A stretch of DNA of 64,000 bases from an uncultured Collinsella sp. (lineage in GTDB: Bacteria; Actinomycetota; Coriobacteriia; Coriobacteriales; Coriobacteriaceae), in assembly GCA_949287065.1 (NCBI GenBank), contig CASEEV010000082.1, forward strand, positions 1 to 64,000, written 5' to 3'. The first letter of the stretch is position 1, and the number at the start of each line of letters is the position of its first letter. The translations under genes were made by a program, and so were the position numbers. Below the pieces are notes generated by a model, which was not told the DNA's origin, searched no databases, and saw nothing but the letters and a program-made list of their open reading frames with translations. Shown here piece after piece: positions 5,233 to 19,294 of the stretch.

Positions 5233-5979
5233 CTAGAAAAGCACGCCGAGAACGACAAGCACCACACAGAGGACGAAGGCGCCGACGTCGAGCGTGGTGA
5301 AGGGGTAGCGCTTGAAAGAGCTCTCGCGCGTGCGGAGGTAGAAGCCGCGCTGCTCGGCGGCGAGCGCCGTGGCGTCCGTCTTGGCGACCGAGGTCACAAG
5401 CAGCGGAATGCACACGGGCAGCATGAGCGTGAGGCGCTTCAAGGGGTTCTTGGTATCGAACTCCACGCCGCGCGCAGTCTGTGCCTCCATAATGGCGTTC
5501 ATCTCCTGCGAGAACACCGGCACAAAACGCAGCGCCGTAGTGAACGTGAACGCGTACTTGTACGGAATGTGCAGCTTCTCGACGCACGCGTTGGCAAGGT
5601 CGGTGGTCTTGGTGACCATGAGCATGAGCACGAGCGGCAACGCCACGCCGAGCAGGCGCAGGCACGCCTTGCCGCCCGTCACAAGGCCCTGGTCGGTCAC
5701 GAAGCCGAGCACGGGATTGCCTGCCCGCGTAAAGGCAATCTGCAGGACGAACATAATGAGTGCCACTGGCACGAGCACCTTGAGCAGCGACAGCATGCGG
5801 TCCGCAACGCCCGCGTAGGCGGCGAGCGCCAGCGTAAGCACGAGCAGACCGATAAGCGCCGGGAAGCCGGAGACGAGCAGCGTCGCCGCGATGATAGCAG
5901 CAGCAAGCACGAGCTTGGCCACCGGGTTGAGCTTGTGCAGGAGCGTGGTTCCCGGCACGTAGTCGATCACGTTAAGCAT
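5233..5979 (-). CDS. ecfT: ECF transporter transmembrane protein EcfT
   Basis: A 248-residue membrane scaffold that couples the ATPases to the substrate-binding S component. It has five or six hydrophobic segments and the two coupling-helix signatures of the family in the cytoplasmic loop: AQTARG near residue 154 and AAEQRG near 207. The start overlaps the stop of the ATPase gene by 8 bp. It is the last gene of the operon and is followed by a terminator. Confidence 0.92.
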   Translation of the reverse strand: MLNVIDYVPGTTLLHKLNPVAKLVLAAAIIAATLLVSGFPALIGLLVLTLALAAYAGVADRMLSLLKVLVPVALIMFVLQIAFTRAGNPVLGFVTDQGLVTGGKACLRLLGVALPLVLMLMVTKTTDLANACVEKLHIPYKYAFTFTTALRFVPVFSQEMNAIMEAQTARGVEFDTKNPLKRLTLMLPVCIPLLVTSVAKTDATALAAEQRGFYLRTRESSFKRYPFTTLDVGAFVLCVVLVVLGVLF

Positions 5980-7951
5980 GGGCGCGCGCCTCCGATCCGC
6001 CGGTCACCATCTCGACGACCGTATCCACCAACGCCGAAACCTCGCCGATGCCCGCAAAGTCGGGCGACACGCCGCGGGCCAGCCGCTCCGAAAGGGCCAC
6101 GACCTGCGGCGGCGCCACACTTGCGCGCTCCATGTACACGGGGTTGCGGAAGATCTCGCCCACCGGGCCGCACCCCACGATGCGCCCGTCGGCCATCACG
6201 GCCGCGCGATCGGCAAAGTCCGAGACGACCTCCATGTCGTGGCAGACCATCACCACGGCCGACCCGCGGGCGGCCATCTCGCTCACCGTCTCCATAACGG
6301 TCATGCACTCGCGGTAGTCGAGGCCGCTCGTAGGCTCGTCGAGCACGATGACCTCGGGCTCGAGCACCACCACCGAGGCAAGCGCCACCATCTGCCGCTG
6401 ACCGCGCGAAAGCGAGAAGGGCGCGGCCTCCTCGTGCAGGACGAAGCGTTCGATAACCGCACGAGCCCGGTCGCGCGCCTCGTCGGCGCCAACGCCCTGC
6501 AGCTCCAGGCCAAAGGCGACCTCGTCGAGCACCGTGTTCTTGCAGAGCTGCCGATCGGGGTTCTGAAACAGCGTCGCCGCGTGGCGCGCGATGGTCGAGA
6601 CCGGCGTGTCGCGCGTGTCGAGCCCGGCAATGGCAACACGGCCCTCGGTAGGCTGCAAAAGGCCGTTCAGCAGCTTGGTCGCCGTGGTCTTACCCGCGCC
6701 GTTTTGGCCGATAAGTGCAAAGATCTCGCCGGGATGCACGGCGAAGCACAGGTCCTCGACCGCCGCGCCACCCGGGTAGGCAAAGCCCACGTGGTTGAAC
6801 TCAACCACCGGCATGACCGACTGAATGCCCTGATCCTCATGACGTCCGCGGGGCGCGTTGAACTCCTCCTCAAACGCCGCGCGCGCCGCGTCGCGCGACC
6901 ATGCGCCGTGCGCCGCAACCGTGAGCTTGTCCGTTGCCATGGCGGCGGCGGTGGCAAACACCGCCAGCTCGTCGTCGGGAGCGCCGAAGGCCGACTGGGA
7001 CGAGGAGGCCAGGTGAGCGCCGTACGGGGCGCTCTTCTCTTCTGCCGGAGCGTCAAACCCGGCCAAGCGACCCAGGCGCGCGCGGCTCACGACGCCGCTC
7101 ACCAGCTCGTACGCGTCGGCCACCGTAAGGCAAGGAGCTCCGTGTGGCGCCACGCCCTTGGCCATGAGGCTGTTGGAGACGCGCGCGGTGCGCGGGCTGT
7201 CGACGCCGATGGCGCGCAGCTCAGCGCTGTGCGAGAAGACCTCGCGCGGGGTACCGTCGAGGGCAATGCGGCCCTCGTCCATGACCACGATGCGCTCGCA
7301 GAACTCGCTCAGGAGCGCCACCATCTGCTCGATCACCACCACGGTCACACCGAGCGTGTGGTTGACGGTGCGCAGCGTCTCGAAAACCATGCGGGCGCTC
7401 GCGGGGTCGAGCGCGGCGGTGGGCTCGTCGAGCACGAGCATGCGCGGACGCAGGGCGAGAATGGCGGCGATGGCGACCTTTTGCTTCTGCCCGCCCGACA
7501 GCGTGGCGATCTCGCGGTCGCGCAGGTCGGAGATGCCGATCGTGGCGAGCGTTTCGGTGATGCGCGTCTCGATCTGGTCATGCGGAACACCGAAGTTCTC
7601 GAGACCAAAGAGCAGCTCGTCCTCGACCACCGAGGCCACCATCTGCGCGTCGATGTCCTGCAGGACCGAGCCGACGATCTGCGAGATGTCGGTCAGCGTG
7701 ACGTCGCAGGTATCGCGCCCGTCTACGTACGTGGCGCCGAAGAGGCGGCCGGCGTAGTGGTGCGGGATGGCGCCCGACATAACGCTGGCGAGCGTGGACT
7801 TGCCGGCGCCGGAGGGGCCGATGATACCTACGAACGCGCCGGGGTCGATAGCAAGCGAGACGTCGTCGAGCGCAAGCGGCGCCTCGGCTTCCGCGCCCTC
7901 GGCGCTGCCGTACGAGAACGACACGTGGTCGATGTGAACGATGGGCTGCAT
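5972..7951 (-). CDS. Fused double ATPase of an ECF transporter (EcfA-EcfA')
   Basis: A 659-residue protein carrying two complete ABC ATPase domains, corresponding to the usually separate EcfA1 and EcfA2. Domain 1 has Walker A GPSGAGKS (45-52), LSGGQ and LVLDEPTAALD. Domain 2, from about residue 390, has GQNGAGKT, a variant signature LSRGQ and VIVLDEPTSGLD. A linker of roughly 100 residues, rich in Ala and charged residues, joins them. The ATG at 7951 has AAAGG upstream; the frame extends 26 codons further but without a ribosome site. It supplies energy for the S component encoded upstream. Confidence 0.92.
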   Translation of the reverse strand: MQPIVHIDHVSFSYGSAEGAEAEAPLALDDVSLAIDPGAFVGIIGPSGAGKSTLASVMSGAIPHHYAGRLFGATYVDGRDTCDVTLTDISQIVGSVLQDIDAQMVASVVEDELLFGLENFGVPHDQIETRITETLATIGISDLRDREIATLSGGQKQKVAIAAILALRPRMLVLDEPTAALDPASARMVFETLRTVNHTLGVTVVVIEQMVALLSEFCERIVVMDEGRIALDGTPREVFSHSAELRAIGVDSPRTARVSNSLMAKGVAPHGAPCLTVADAYELVSGVVSRARLGRLAGFDAPAEEKSAPYGAHLASSSQSAFGAPDDELAVFATAAAMATDKLTVAAHGAWSRDAARAAFEEEFNAPRGRHEDQGIQSVMPVVEFNHVGFAYPGGAAVEDLCFAVHPGEIFALIGQNGAGKTTATKLLNGLLQPTEGRVAIAGLDTRDTPVSTIARHAATLFQNPDRQLCKNTVLDEVAFGLELQGVGADEARDRARAVIERFVLHEEAAPFSLSRGQRQMVALASVVVLEPEVIVLDEPTSGLDYRECMTVMETVSEMAARGSAVVMVCHDMEVVSDFADRAAVMADGRIVGCGPVGEIFRNPVYMERASVAPPQVVALSERLARGVSPDFAGIGEVSALVDTVVEMVTGGSEARAHA

Positions 7952-8074: not shown

Positions 8075-8692
8075 TTAGTCGTTGAGCTTGAGGGCCGCGC
8101 GCACCGGCAGGTACAGCGCCGCCACGAGCACCGCGTTGAAGACGGCGGTGAGCGCGACCACCGGCAGCATGGCCGCAGCGATGCCCATGTCGAACTGCAT
8201 CACGGCCATGCGGATGAGCATGAAGATGAAGCCCGAGACGAACGTGGTCACAAAGGTGCCGATAAGCGGGATGGCACCCTTGGCCGGCGTCTTCATGCCC
8301 GCGTTGACGATGAGCGCCATGAGCACGGCGGCAACGCCCTCGGCCACGAAGTCGGCGCCGGGCAGGCTCGTGGTGAGCTGAATGACCGCGGCCGAAACGA
8401 GACCGATGATGAGCGCTTGGCCAATGCCCGGGCGCACCACGAGAATGGTGAGGCAGAAGGCGGAGATGATGAACTCGGGGTTGATCATGCCGCCGGACGC
8501 GGCGCCGATGGCCTTGCCGACGAACATGTTGAGGATAAAGCCCGCGGCCAGCAGCACGGCGAGCAGCACGAGCGCCTTGACGTCGAGTTTGCCACGATCG
8601 ACGGTCGATACGGTGCGGGCCGGGGAAGCGGGACGAGCGTTGCCGGAAGGACGGGCGTGGGCGGCGGGACGAGCGTTGTTGTTGGCGGCCAT
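8075..8692 (-). CDS. ECF transporter S component, probably tryptophan-specific
   Basis: A 205-residue membrane protein with five or six hydrophobic helices after a 35-residue Ala/Pro/Arg/Asn-rich N-terminal extension. Its place ahead of the EcfA-EcfA' and EcfT genes and its size and topology identify it as the substrate-binding S component. Tryptophan as substrate is inferred mainly from the upstream leader peptide with three consecutive Trp codons; the protein may belong to the TrpP-type S components, but I cannot align it here. The start at 8692 has AAAGGAG 5 bases upstream. No Trp biosynthesis genes are near. Confidence 0.78.
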   Translation of the reverse strand: MAANNNARPAAHARPSGNARPASPARTVSTVDRGKLDVKALVLLAVLLAAGFILNMFVGKAIGAASGGMINPEFIISAFCLTILVVRPGIGQALIIGLVSAAVIQLTTSLPGADFVAEGVAAVLMALIVNAGMKTPAKGAIPLIGTFVTTFVSGFIFMLIRMAVMQFDMGIAAAMLPVVALTAVFNAVLVAALYLPVRAALKLND

Positions 8693-8865
8693 GATGGCTC
8701 CTTTCTGAGCGGCCCTTGGGGGCCGAGTGAGATACGAGGTGCAGGCGTGCGTACGTGCGAACGGAGGCGCGCGGCTCCCGCCGGATCCAGTCTTTGGTGA
8801 TTCTCGGCTTTGCCCGGGCTGCCAGAAGCCTTATCCGCACGCCCCGACTCGCGGGGAGGCAAACG

Positions 8866-8895
8866 AAAAAAGGCCCCCGGTCACCCGGGAGCCTT
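8866..8895 (-). terminator. Attenuator terminator of the tryptophan transporter operon
   Basis: On the minus strand AAGGC-CCCGG (one mismatch), a 4 nt loop and its complement are followed by six T residues. The hairpin starts 30 bp after the stop codon of the Trp leader peptide and 174 bp before the S-component start, so read-through is required for transporter expression. The top of the hairpin includes GACCGG, complementary to CCGGTC in leader codons 24-25 (8937-8942). That pairing would form the competing antiterminator when a ribosome stalls at the Trp codons. Confidence 0.85.
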
Positions 8896-8924
8896 CTGAA
8901 CGCTCAATAGGTATGCGCACAGAC

Positions 8925-9011
8925 TCACCGACGACCGACCGGACGAGAACCACGCCACCACCAGTTGTTGCGCTGCACGCTGCTCAGAGCGGCGAGGGTT
9001 GCGCACTTCAT
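8925..9011 (-). CDS. Tryptophan leader peptide (28 aa, WWW)
   Basis: A 28-codon frame reading MKCATLAALSSVQRNN-WWW-RGSRPVGRR, with AAAGGAG 7 bases upstream of the ATG. Three consecutive TGG codons (17-19) precede an intrinsic terminator by about 60 nt, the classical layout of a trp attenuator. When charged tRNA-Trp is scarce, the ribosome should stall at codons 17-19, free the downstream CCGGTC segment to pair with the terminator and let transcription reach the ECF transporter genes. The layout is seen directly; the mechanism is inferred from known Trp leaders. Confidence 0.9.
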   Translation of the reverse strand: MKCATLAALSSVQRNNWWWRGSRPVGRR

Positions 9012-9208
9012 ACGGCGGCTCCTTTCTTGGTTCCCGAACAATCGTGCATCTTGGGTTGCACTCTACCACGGCACTCCGCTGTTGCCCAGCCGCGGACACA
9101 CAACAGTAACAATACCGTCGGCCAGCGGTAGAGCCTACGCGCGGGGTTCGGGGCAATCCATCTGCACCGCCAAGCCAAGCAAGCCCACTAATCCCACGAA
9201 AATGACTG

Positions 9209-9365: not shown

Positions 9366-9562
9366 TCGCGCCGGAAAAGCCAAACCGCGCACCCGGCCTC
9401 GGTTCTGAAAAGGATCGCGCATGTGTTTCGGATATAAAGTCGGCGTGCTTCGCCGCTCCCTAAGCCTAGCAGGGACTCCCGGAAGGTGCCTTGCACGCTA
9501 CGGCTGTGACGAGGATACTTCTGAAGAGATGCAGATCAATCACAACCGGCGGGGAGAACGGC

Positions 9563-12268
9563 ATGCGGGCAGCGCTCTGGACAATTTGGCTGACGCTTCT
9601 GCTGGGGACACCGTACTTTGTTGAGAACGGCTACGACGGCCCCGCGCTCTCGCCCCTGTACAGCTGGGCTGCGCTCGGACTGCTTGCCGGGTTAGCAGCA
9701 AGCCCGTACGTTGCGGCACGCCGCCGAGCCGTCTGTCGCACGCCCGAGCGCGAGGAGCGCGCCGCACGGAGCGACGGGCGCCTCTTTGCCGGAGGATTTG
9801 CACTCTGTATCGTGAGCGTCGCTCCCGAGTTCCTCTGTCTCCCGACATATGGGCCGGAAGATCTCGAGGCATCCGCGATTTTCAATCTGCTCTGGACCCT
9901 GCCCTTCGAGATAGACCTCGGTGCGTTCGCCACGATACGCCACATAGCCCTCCTGGTAAGTGGAGCGCTCTGCGCCCTTGCTGCGCCTTCATTGTTTGCA
10001 GCCGAAGATGCTCGTACAGCTCGAAGTACGCCGAGCCCGACCTCAAGGGTCGTGGCGGCGCTTGCCCCAGCTGCTTTCTTTACCCTTGGCGTAGCCCTCC
10101 GCGCCCTGTGGCTGCTTGTCATGCCGAACGACTTTTCTGCAACCGCGACCTTCCGCGGCATAGACTTCTCGTTCCCGCCGTCGCCCCTATTGATGCTTGC
10201 GCCCCTGTTCGCAGCCGGCCTTGCGGCTGCGGCAATATCTTGGGGCACGCGCACCGCCCGCACGGCCAAGCTTCGCCCCGTAGGCGACCGCGTCTTTGCA
10301 CTTCAAACATGCGTCGGCTCGCTCGCTTTGGGCACGGCCGCTTGGTCGTTGACCACACGCTGCGTTATCGTGCGCACAGCAGTCGGCTCGTCTGGCGCCA
10401 AAGTCCTTCTTGTCGCCGCCGCCCTACTCTTGATAGCGCTCGCAGCATGTCTGGTATGCAGCCGACGTGACATCGGAACCGATAAGCAGACAGACAGTGC
10501 CACCACGGCAACAAAACCAGAGAAAGCCCAAGTCCCCGCAAGTGCCGAAAACCCCGCCGCGCATATCTGGAGCGAGTTCGGCCTCTCCCCGCGCGAAGAA
10601 CAGGTAGCTCGCGCCATCGTGAGCGGCAGCAGCTCGACCGAAGTGGCACAATCACTCGGCATCTCCGCCTCAACAGTGCGTTCTACCATGCATCGCGTTT
10701 ATCAGAAAGTCGGATGCAAAGGACGAGAAGAGCTCGTCCGGCTCGTTGCCGACCGCCATAACGACGAAACCGGAGCCCTCTTCGCCGAGACCAGCACCAC
10801 GGCACCCAGCACTGCACCCGCAACGTCCGTTGTTTCGGATTCCGCACGCGGCGGTCACGCGCGCAGAGGAGCGGCCGCCTACGCGCAGCACGCCCTGCGT
10901 CTTTGCTTGCTCTGCCTGTGCGTGTTGTACGTGCCGTACAGCAGCGTCATCGTCCCCTGGGGCACAGAACGCGAAGTCATCATGGGCGCGGCAACAGGAC
11001 TCGTGGGCTATGCCCTCATGTCGTGGTATCGCAAACGGACGGCTCAGGGCAGCGCCTCACCCGACGCTGAAGCTGCTACCGACCGGCAGCACACGGGGCT
11101 CCAAGTTGCCCGGCGCATCGCACTCGGCGCCGTACTCATTGCTGCAAGCTGCGGAGCCGCCCTCTTTGCCACCGACCAAATTCGAGAAGTGTCATATGAC
11201 CTCGGCACCCGCTTCTCGCCTGCGGGCTTCTTGGCATACGCCGCTCTTACGTCCGCGCTTCTCTGCGCCGCCCGTTGTGCGAGCGCGCCCAACATCGACG
11301 AGAAGCCCGCAACGCTGCGCGAACGCATCGCCTGCGGCCTTTTGCTCGCCGCGTTCGCGCTCGCCACGCTGCTGACAAAAACGCCCGTGCTGCTCTGTGG
11401 CGGCGCGGGCGTTGCCGCGGCAGCTTTCTTGACGATTGCACCCGATGCCACGGCCGAAAACCCCGCCCCGGCGCAAGCGCACACCGCGGCCGCGATGCGC
11501 TCCCAGGAGATGCTTGTCTGCTGCGCAGCCGCGGGCCTCTGTCTCGGCATCGGCTTTGAGGAGCTTTGGCGTTCGCTCGGCGTCTTCACCTTGCAGATTG
11601 CCGTGCTGCCGCTCTGCGCGCTCATCGTGGCAAGCGCCCTGGCCCAGCGTGACGGCATGCGCACGCAAAGCGCCCTCCTCGTCGCCGCACTTCCGGCAGT
11701 GGCCATCTTTGCTGCCACGCTCAACCTGTTCTGCGCCGTCTTCGTTGTTGGCATCGCCGCATTTGCCGCCGCCCTTACGCCCCGCTCCCTGACCCCGGCA
11801 CTTGCCGGCATCGGCGCGGGCATGCTCGCAGGAATGTACGTGAGCAACCTGCTCGGCGACTATATGGGCACCTTTAGCTTCGCGGTCGCATCGATCTTTG
11901 GCAGCAACCTTGCCTACAACGTTGTTCTGACCGCGGGCGCGTCGGTTCTCCTCGCACTCGGAGGCGCGACGCACTACCGTTACCTCAGCCTCAAACGCCG
12001 CGAAGAGCTCGCAACCCGCTTGGCCGCAGAGCAGAGCCCCGCACAAGATGTGCGCCGCCAAGCCGCCTACCTCACAGCGCGCGGGCTCTCGGACCTTCAG
12101 GTGCGCGTGCTCCTGCTCACCGTGCAGGGCCAGATGCCTGCAGCCATTGCAGAGGAGCTGCACTACTCGCGCAGCACCGTCAAAGCAGCAAAGCGCGCCG
12201 CCCTCTTACAGCTCGGTGTTGCCAACACTGCCGAGCTGCTCGAGCTGCTCCAAAGCGCTCTTCAGTAA
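9563..12268 (+). CDS. Membrane-bound LuxR-family regulator with two HTH domains
   Basis: A 901-residue protein built as two similar halves: a block of hydrophobic helices (about 1-310), a LuxR-type HTH (about 335-400, core LSPREEQVARAI and SASTVRSTMHRVYQKVG), a second helical block (about 440-815) and a second LuxR-type HTH at the C terminus (about 836-900, LTARGLSDLQVRVLL and YSRSTVKAAKRAAL). Membrane LuxR proteins with one such unit are common in Coriobacteriia; the tandem form is unusual. The start at 9563 has GGGGAG 8 bases upstream. It probably senses a signal at the membrane and controls the co-directional export cluster that follows. Ligand and DNA targets are unknown. Confidence 0.85.
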   Translation: MRAALWTIWLTLLLGTPYFVENGYDGPALSPLYSWAALGLLAGLAASPYVAARRRAVCRTPEREERAARSDGRLFAGGFALCIVSVAPEFLCLPTYGPEDLEASAIFNLLWTLPFEIDLGAFATIRHIALLVSGALCALAAPSLFAAEDARTARSTPSPTSRVVAALAPAAFFTLGVALRALWLLVMPNDFSATATFRGIDFSFPPSPLLMLAPLFAAGLAAAAISWGTRTARTAKLRPVGDRVFALQTCVGSLALGTAAWSLTTRCVIVRTAVGSSGAKVLLVAAALLLIALAACLVCSRRDIGTDKQTDSATTATKPEKAQVPASAENPAAHIWSEFGLSPREEQVARAIVSGSSSTEVAQSLGISASTVRSTMHRVYQKVGCKGREELVRLVADRHNDETGALFAETSTTAPSTAPATSVVSDSARGGHARRGAAAYAQHALRLCLLCLCVLYVPYSSVIVPWGTEREVIMGAATGLVGYALMSWYRKRTAQGSASPDAEAATDRQHTGLQVARRIALGAVLIAASCGAALFATDQIREVSYDLGTRFSPAGFLAYAALTSALLCAARCASAPNIDEKPATLRERIACGLLLAAFALATLLTKTPVLLCGGAGVAAAAFLTIAPDATAENPAPAQAHTAAAMRSQEMLVCCAAAGLCLGIGFEELWRSLGVFTLQIAVLPLCALIVASALAQRDGMRTQSALLVAALPAVAIFAATLNLFCAVFVVGIAAFAAALTPRSLTPALAGIGAGMLAGMYVSNLLGDYMGTFSFAVASIFGSNLAYNVVLTAGASVLLALGGATHYRYLSLKRREELATRLAAEQSPAQDVRRQAAYLTARGLSDLQVRVLLLTVQGQMPAAIAEELHYSRSTVKAAKRAALLQLGVANTAELLELLQSALQ

Positions 12269-16972: not shown

Positions 16973-19294
16973 TTACTTGAGCAGCTTCTCGAACGCGGCG
17001 CGTGCGCCTTCCTCTTCGGCATCGTTGAGCGGAGCGAGCGCGACGTCCATGCCGCGGCGGCGCAGCGCGCGTTCGATGAGCCAGTCGGCGAGCTGGGGGT
17101 TCTTGCTCAGCACCGGGCCGTGGAAGTACGTGCCCACCACGCCGTCGTGCACCAGGCCCTCAAAGCCGTCCTCGCCGTTGTTGCCCGTGCCGGGGAGCTG
17201 GCTCACGCCGAGCGGTTTCTCGTTCTCGTCGAGGAACGTGCGGCCGCCGTGGTTCTCGAAACCCAAAATCGGGTCGCGCACGATCTCGGAGCGCACGCTC
17301 ACGTTGCCGATCAGGCGCGCCTTAGGACCCTCGCCGGCACGTCGCGTCTCGAGGCCCACGGCGCCCGCGCCCTCGATCTTTTCGTCGCCGAGATAGTAAT
17401 GGCGGCCGAGCAGCTGGTAGCCGCCGCAGATGGCGAGAAGCACGCCGCCGTCGTTGATGTAGGCGCGCAGCGCGTCGGCGTTCTTGAGCAGCTCGCCCTG
17501 AACGGCCAGTTGGTCGCGGTCGGCGCCGCCGCCGATCATGGCGATGTCGGTGCCCGAGAAGTCCGCCTGCTCGCCGCGGTTGAGCGAGTTGACCTCGACC
17601 GGAATGCCGCGCCACAGGCAGCGCTTGTAGAGCATCTGCACGTTGCCCGTGTCGCCGTAGAGGTTCATCTCCTCGGGGTACAGGTGCGTGATGCGCAGCG
17701 GGCGAGCGGCGAGCGCCTTGAACTCGGGAGCGATCTCGCCTGGCGCGAGAAGCGCCCACGGCTCGCGCGAGGCCGCCGCGGGCTTTACGGCGGCGTCGGC
17801 CTCGGCGGCGGGGGCCGCGGCGACCCTGTCCGCCGCGGCAACGTCCTTCTCGGCAGCGGCGTCGGCGGCGGCAATGGCCTCCTCGGCCGTCATGTTGGCG
17901 GCGTCGCCTTCGTCGAGCTTCTCGAGCTCGTCGCAGAGCACGGGCATGGCGGTGTAGTTGCCCACCACGTAGAGCATCTCGCCTGTGGACAGCGTGCACT
18001 GGTCGAGCGCCTCCGAGACCGTCAGCGCGATCTTGCTCGGCACGCCCGCGTACTTAAGGCGCACCTGCAAGTCGTTGGCACGGGTGCCGCCGGCAAAGAC
18101 CTGCAGGTCGGGCATGCCGGCCAGGCACTCAAAGTCGGCGTCCCACAACCATGAGATGTCGTGGCCGTCGGCATCGTTGTCGTTAATGTAGAACGCGCAG
18201 GCGTGGCCCGACGAGTTCTTGATGAGCTGCAGCATGCGGTCAAAGCCCACCGGGTTCTTGGCCAGGTTGGCGAGCACCGGGCGTCCGCCCACGGTGAAGG
18301 TCTGCATGCGGCCGCGCGCCGGCTTGTAGTTGGCGAGAACCTCGGCAAAGCGCTCAGACGGGGCGCCGAGCAGACGCGCGCCCGTGAAGGCAGCCGTGAT
18401 GTTGTAGACCATGTAGAGGCCGCGGTACGCCGTGCCGACAGCGAGCGGCTCGGGGAAGGCGGTGGCGCCTGCCGGACCCGCCGCCTGGGAGCCGGCGTTG
18501 ATGCGGAAGGTGTAGCCGCGCGGGCCGAGCACGATGTTGCGCACCGCCACCGCGAGCTCGGGGCGCTCCCAGCCGCACTTGGGGCAGCGATACTTGCCGA
18601 GCTGGCCGTACTGCACATAGTCGTAATCGAGCGGGGCGTTGCACACCGCGCAGAAGCGGCTGTCGGAGACCTTGTCGGACTCGGTGCCCGTGGGCTCGTC
18701 GAGGCCGAAGGCGATGGTGGGGTTGCTCACGCGGCGCGCGATGGAGGCGCACAGCGGGTCGTCGGCGTTGAAGACGAGCGTGGTCTCGGGCGAGGAGGCG
18801 AGCGCCTTGGCGATGACGTCCTGCGTGTGGTCGATCTCGCCAAAACGGTCGAGCTGGTCGCGGAACAGGTTGAGAAGCACCAGGTAGCGGGGGCGCAGCT
18901 TGGGCAGCACGCGCGCGGTGTAGAGCTCGTCGCACTCGAAGCAGCCGATGGCTCCGCCGCGGCGCTGAGCAGAGGTGAGGGAGCGGCGCCCCTGCATGAC
19001 GGCAGCGGTGATACCGCCCTCCAGGTTGTTGCCGGCGCGGTTGGTAATGACCGGCTTGCCCGTCTGCGCCAAGCAGTCGGCGAGCAGGTTGGTGGTGGTG
19101 GTCTTGCCGTTGGTGCCCGTAACCACGATCACGTCCGAGAACAGCGACCTGAACGACGCGAGGATCTGCGGCGAGAGTCGCAGCGCCACAGCGCCGGGAA
19201 TGTTGCCGCCGCTGCGATGCAGCAACGTGCGCGACGCCCAACCGGCGAGGCGGCCGGCGGTTACGGCAACGGCGTTTCTCGGGTTCATGCTCAT
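16973..19294 (-). CDS. Fused lipid II isoglutaminyl synthase MurT-GatD
   Basis: A 773-residue protein joining the two subunits of the enzyme that amidates the stem-peptide D-glutamate of lipid II, using glutamine. The N-terminal Mur-ligase-like part has GTNGKTTT (60-67) and a zinc-ribbon insert with two CxxC pairs (CAVC and CPKC), followed by the ligase C domain to about 440. An Ala-rich linker (about 450-530) leads to a GatD amidotransferase domain with nucleophile Cys623 (AICGGYQ) and His725 (YFHGP). The subunits are separate in Staphylococcus and Streptococcus. The start at 19294 has GGAGG 6 bases upstream. Confidence 0.93.
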   Translation of the reverse strand: MSMNPRNAVAVTAGRLAGWASRTLLHRSGGNIPGAVALRLSPQILASFRSLFSDVIVVTGTNGKTTTTNLLADCLAQTGKPVITNRAGNNLEGGITAAVMQGRRSLTSAQRRGGAIGCFECDELYTARVLPKLRPRYLVLLNLFRDQLDRFGEIDHTQDVIAKALASSPETTLVFNADDPLCASIARRVSNPTIAFGLDEPTGTESDKVSDSRFCAVCNAPLDYDYVQYGQLGKYRCPKCGWERPELAVAVRNIVLGPRGYTFRINAGSQAAGPAGATAFPEPLAVGTAYRGLYMVYNITAAFTGARLLGAPSERFAEVLANYKPARGRMQTFTVGGRPVLANLAKNPVGFDRMLQLIKNSSGHACAFYINDNDADGHDISWLWDADFECLAGMPDLQVFAGGTRANDLQVRLKYAGVPSKIALTVSEALDQCTLSTGEMLYVVGNYTAMPVLCDELEKLDEGDAANMTAEEAIAAADAAAEKDVAAADRVAAAPAAEADAAVKPAAASREPWALLAPGEIAPEFKALAARPLRITHLYPEEMNLYGDTGNVQMLYKRCLWRGIPVEVNSLNRGEQADFSGTDIAMIGGGADRDQLAVQGELLKNADALRAYINDGGVLLAICGGYQLLGRHYYLGDEKIEGAGAVGLETRRAGEGPKARLIGNVSVRSEIVRDPILGFENHGGRTFLDENEKPLGVSQLPGTGNNGEDGFEGLVHDGVVGTYFHGPVLSKNPQLADWLIERALRRRGMDVALAPLNDAEEEGARAAFEKLLK

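Follow-up and report, generated by a model that had tools for sequence, protein, structure and literature searches.

A ribosome-mediated attenuator of the trp type very probably controls, to judge from the sequence, a group I ECF importer for tryptophan or a close compound of the tryptophan pool in an uncultured Collinsella sp. The element lies at 8866-9011 of the 64,000-nucleotide stretch of DNA that was analysed as a whole (the window), to which all coordinates refer unless a contig or locus is named. We infer ribosome stalling, termination, readthrough and tryptophan transport from the parts found in the sequence, their conservation and their covariation. The gut bacterium probably cannot make tryptophan: neither trpA nor a trpB above cut-off was found in its draft genome. 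As trpA and canonical trpB are absent, the genome probably depends on imported tryptophan or salvaged indole; with three Trp codons in front of it, the probable importer should come on only under tryptophan shortage. Across the genomes of the family, also drafts, no trpA match was found in 58 of 61 and no trpB above cut-off in 60 of 61. In Collinsella and its relatives, abundant gut bacteria most of which are without trpA and canonical trpB, the element would be a tryptophan-responsive switch open to direct testing. One Collinsella-group genome, G059 (contig C1, L193), does have both trpA and trpB at scores above cut-off, and the 10 kb read there showed no clear WW leader at its trp operon.

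The ECF operon and its probable substrate

The sequence-only reading had described a 28-codon minus-strand leader with a good ribosome site and three consecutive TGG codons, followed by an intrinsic terminator and an ECF S-component gene. All of these parts are borne out: the leader at 9011-8925 with its TGG codons at 8963-8955, the ribosome site AAAGGAG at 9025-9019, a 13-bp stem with T run at 8897-8866, and the S-component gene at 8692-8075. The features of the locus are as follows.

9060-9068, minus strand: candidate extended -10 promoter element TGGTAGAGT, 57 nt upstream of the leader ATG, a consensus match only
9014-9025, minus strand: Shine-Dalgarno sequence AAAGGAG, then GCCGCC, a potential partner of the Trp codons in a 5' hairpin
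8925-9011, minus strand: leader peptide ORF, MKCATLAALSSVQRNNWWWRGSRPVGRR and stop codon; ..NNWWWR...GRR is conserved in relatives
8955-8963, minus strand: three regulatory Trp codons, TGGTGGTGG, read from the sequence; WWW in nearly all members
8950-8956, minus strand: region 1 (GGCGTGG; last Trp, Arg and Gly codons), whose partner is the post-stop region
8922-8942, minus strand: region 2, CCGGTCGGTCGTCGGTGAGTC, the antiterminator strand at the leader end, spanning the stop codon; conserved core CGGTC at 8937-8933
8914-8920, minus strand: stretch after the stop codon that pairs with region 1; GTGCGCA-like here, TCACGCC in most relatives
8866-8897, minus strand: intrinsic terminator; 5' arm 8897-8885, loop 8884-8881, 3' arm 8880-8868, T run to 8866
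8075-8692, minus strand: ECF S component, TrpP-like (PF17099 TrpP, E 0.0013, below the gathering score)
5972-7951, minus strand: fused ECF ATPases EcfA-A'; the ORF is open from 8029 and the ATG at 7951 is taken as start; two ABC_tran domains, TIGR04520/TIGR04521 above cut-off
5233-5979, minus strand: ECF transmembrane component EcfT (PF02361 CbiQ, E 8e-25)

The S component, two ATPase domains and the T component are thus encoded in one operon, the composition of a group I ECF transporter. The terminator is the strongest of its 8-kb region, and the S gene starts ~170 nt past it with a ribosome site of its own. There are three copies of TGGTGGTGG in the window where 0.3 would be expected, two of them overlapping at 19090; among relatives, the tandem Trp codons vary to WW in L040 and L141 and to WAW in L052. 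A TGCTATAGT-like element is found ~51-90 nt upstream of the leader ATG in nearly all of the relatives' loci. A large membrane-protein-like gene (9491-12268, plus strand) with two LuxR-type DNA-binding domains, in its middle and at its C-terminus, adjoins the operon divergently.

The S component appears, by a weak match and a structural model, to be a distant TrpP relative with the S-component fold. It scores 19 bits against PF17099, below the gathering score of 27.2, which leaves it outside TrpP by that threshold, and 29 of 46 S-component homologs match the same family at E ≤ 0.01 (best 2.1e-11). The ten best PDB fold matches of the AF2 (AlphaFold2) model (pLDDT 87.7) are all ECF S components, ThiT and RibU included, at modest E-values (best 0.08); a PDB sequence search returned no relative. 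A substrate is in this way proposed for an ECF S component with no more than a marginal Pfam match. The earlier description of a vitamin-type transporter family undersells it, as TrpP-type ECF S components for tryptophan are already recognised in Bacillus (PMC11487621, PMC13170310). The arrangement of the genes varies in relatives: the S component is fused to an ECF ATPase as one protein in L142 (698-3338 downstream of the element) and also in L146, L150 and L167, and tandem S-component pairs are present in several genomes (L004, L006, L010, L046, L151).

Seven orthologous ECF operons that are without the leader (L063-L068, L070), all from other Coriobacteriales families, carry a T-box with UGG at the specifier position in every case. 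These T-boxes have cores of the form GGTGG(C/T)ACCGC and E-values from 7e-11 to 4e-15, below the Rfam gathering score. An eighth leaderless ortholog (L069) sits behind a TrpB-like gene that has its own leader. In the window's genome a second leader, MLAIATKTNVLAAPSVAAAWWWNKLIPSFSD, with a terminator likewise precedes a TrpB-like gene (L190, contig C45:8300-11200), ~564 nt before the TrpB-like match. A WWW leader stands before such a gene also in the related genomes L191, L192, L195, L196 and L212, and a relative's copy scores above the cut-off for TIGR01415. Twenty-four TrpB-like loci comprise 14 with a leader (three of them chosen with the leader in mind), seven with a T-box and three with neither; the UGG specifier readings cover the seven T-boxes of the ECF operons. 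TrpB-like enzymes of this kind can make tryptophan from indole, so the regulon looks like tryptophan import plus indole salvage. In Slackia-type genomes (L160, L161, L165) the WWW leader precedes a gene of the sodium:neurotransmitter symporter family (PF00209), likely an importer of tryptophan or aromatic amino acids.

The prediction of a tryptophan-specific S component therefore gains support from the weak TrpP match, the UGG T-boxes on orthologs and the other genes behind such leaders. A Trp attenuator could be real and the ECF cargo nevertheless be a tryptophan-related compound (an indole derivative, kynurenine, a Trp dipeptide or another aromatic) instead of L-tryptophan. The remoteness of the S component from TrpP leaves room for this, the tandem S components of some relatives mean that substrates may differ, and a TrpB-like enzyme under the same leader type makes indole-type salvage plausible. 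We nevertheless regard such a cargo as unlikely, since TrpP is the closest named family and the orthologs bear UGG T-boxes, both of which point to tryptophan itself. It is reasonably probable that a salvage regulon responsive to tRNA-Trp exists in Coriobacteriales, with a peptide-leader attenuator specific to the lineage and the T-box replacing one another before the same genes (a dedicated tryptophan ECF importer and a TrpB-like enzyme), a Na+ symporter also under the leader in Slackia, and a distinct leader geometry in which the antiterminator strand, lying across the leader's own stop codon, invades the terminator loop.

Competing pairings and the proposed switch

Three pairings, namely 1:2, antiterminator and terminator, are supported by covariation. 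The alignment behind this covariation was made to fit the modelled structure; swap tests that need no alignment agree. The terminator helix covaries and is 98.6% paired. For the 1:2 pairing, none of 500 shuffles gave covariation as good, pairs being counted by changes on both strands, and none of 50,000 swaps matched the cognate pairs in the alignment-free test, which is uncorrected for relatedness. The codon choice in 1:2 is not better than codon usage predicts. The antiterminator swap test, also uncorrected for relatedness, gave 0 of 50,000 over 81 leaders, and 1 and 16 of 50,000 within two classes. With a first set of loci almost entirely from Coriobacteriaceae, the swap tests had given only modest signals (p ~0.05 for 1:2 and ~0.04 for the antiterminator); adding Atopobiaceae, Slackia and TrpB-like leaders resolved this.

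The sequence-only reading had paired CCGGTC in leader codons 24-25 (8942-8937) with GACCGG in the terminator. Both motifs are present, and pairing of this kind is real and covaries, but it is the second copy, CGGTC in codons 25-27, that is invariant. GACCGG (8882-8877) comprises terminator loop and the first bases of the 3' arm, and these do pair with region 2; the terminator 5' arm is engaged as well, beyond the partner that had been claimed. Within class 1 the antiterminator core is conserved with barely any variation. Both antiterminator strands have changed together in the TrpB-like leaders, where CGGAUUA with UAAUCCG takes the place of CGGUCGA with UUGACCG. At the median, the codons used at the leader end outdo ~96-97% of the synonymous versions in this pairing.

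These pairings suggest the following switch. If charged Trp-tRNA is scarce, a ribosome would stall on WWW and mask region 1, leaving the leader end, from CGGUC up to and including the stop codon, free to pair with the 5' arm of the terminator, its loop and the first part of its 3' arm; this would delay the terminator, and RNA polymerase would read into the S-A-T operon. If tryptophan is plentiful, the ribosome would reach the stop codon and mask the leader end, and the terminator would form. Without translation, the Trp-Arg codons would pair with the post-stop RNA and enclose the leader end in a hairpin, termination being the expected default.

Folding of the growing transcript was consistent with this switch. 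With the ribosome on WWW, region 2 of the window sequence holds terminator arm and loop by 9 to 16 expected pairs, and this hold persists to within ~8 nt of the T-run end; a ribosome at the stop codon leaves no region 2-terminator pairs, and the terminator grows unopposed. At least six such pairs are predicted in the stalled state in 58 of 66 members, and in no member at the stop codon. For the full-length window transcript at equilibrium the terminator wins in both states. Since the completed terminator is favoured even when the ribosome is stalled, antitermination would have to be kinetic. The element accordingly has the parts of a trp-type attenuator: a leader ORF with ribosome site and tandem cognate codons, an intrinsic terminator between leader and first gene, by sequence and folding an exclusive antiterminator that stalling frees and a ribosome at the stop codon masks, and a 1:2 protector or pause hairpin that includes the regulatory codons, which is weak in the window's own copy (4-5 pairs).

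The leader could instead act through translation-level control or ribosome reinitiation. A genome study (PMC4833913) proposes that leader-peptide reinitiation raises downstream translation, Actinobacteria being among the groups discussed. Pairing of the Shine-Dalgarno-proximal bases with the Trp codons would suit translation-level control, and here cognate pairs beat swapped ones (3 of 20,000 swaps as good); it is the weakest of the pairings, because GGAGCC is common as ribosome-site context in this genome. We consider such control very improbable, as the strong terminator with its T run is conserved and covaries, the antiterminator pairing tracks the terminator loop, and the S gene has its own ribosome site at its distance from the terminator.

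Conservation and comparison with known attenuators

S-gene homologs were found in 73 of 100 relatives. Those relatives that carry a name are Collinsella, Enorma, Candidatus Limicola, Candidatus Coprousia and uncultured Coriobacteriaceae, which puts the window in Coriobacteriaceae. The leader is present at 61 of 70 homologous loci, one other having no upstream sequence and the remaining eight being distant orthologs, so that it is not due to chance. All 58 Coriobacteriaceae loci with upstream sequence have a leader with tandem Trp codons and a GACCGGGGG-type terminator before the S gene. Matches to the covariance model (its E-values are rough) extend across the order, from Coriobacteriaceae (Collinsella, Enorma) to Atopobiaceae-like genomes and Slackia (Eggerthellaceae); 35 of 40 further matches directly precede an S component, nearly all followed by ATPase and T genes. 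The Trp codons and the terminator are thus conserved before homologous S components throughout Coriobacteriaceae and in much of Coriobacteriales, contrary to the outcome that, by the sequence-only reading, would refute it. In a phylum sample of 396 genomes, weak model matches outside Coriobacteriales have no WWW leader; those at E 1e-4 to 1e-7 are ordinary terminators.

The fold proposed as a check, that of 8860-9020 as a single sequence in RNAfold, turned out unremarkable (z = -1.2), and the support is comparative instead. This unremarkable fold would suit a chance short ORF before the ordinary terminator of an upstream transcript, an explanation of negligible probability that is contradicted by order-wide conservation, covariation and the functional coherence of the downstream genes.

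The E. coli trp leader, which is in Rfam as a Trp leader family, works by 1:2, 2:3 and 3:4 pairing, the ribosome stalling at Trp codons, and the proposed attenuator shares this logic. Region 2 follows the stop codon in E. coli, whereas it overlaps the leader stop codon in the window. An Rfam scan of the window gave no family match at the gathering score, Trp leader included.

The trp attenuators of Corynebacterium and Streptomyces precede trp biosynthesis genes or trpS (PMC1262725). They share with the window element a leader peptide with double or triple UGG, a GC-rich terminator with a U run, and an antiterminator sharing complementary triples (PMC1262725). Unlike them, the window element precedes an import operon in probable tryptophan auxotrophs, and its antiterminator strand lies within the final stretch of the leader ORF, from where it pairs with the terminator loop. 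In Bacillus, the ECF-type tryptophan importer TrpP (YhaG in B. subtilis) is under TRAP control, which combines a TrpP-type S component with tryptophan-responsive regulation as proposed here (PMC13170310, PMC11487621). TRAP, however, binds RNA close to the ribosome site and so prevents translation (PMC13170310, PMC11487621), in contrast to a leader attenuator, and B. subtilis TrpP uses a shared ECF module, whereas the window has a dedicated operon of S, fused A-A' and T. A literature search of partial coverage found no earlier account of a Trp leader before an ECF transporter, nor of one from Coriobacteriales. As a kind, the mechanism is classical; what appears to be new is the clade, the targets, the overlap of the antiterminator with the leader stop codon and the exchange with T-boxes.

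The T-box (RF00230) is also a sensor of tRNA charging that works through terminator and antiterminator, but it reads uncharged tRNA directly and without translation; the Rfam scan found no T-box at the window locus. The presence of two unrelated tRNA-charging sensors, leader peptide and T-box, exchanged on orthologous operons should be useful for studies of RNA-regulator replacement. A separate strong T-box (109 bits) with a CUC-like specifier was seen on the opposite strand at L064:5334-5581 (plus strand), perhaps for a leucine gene.
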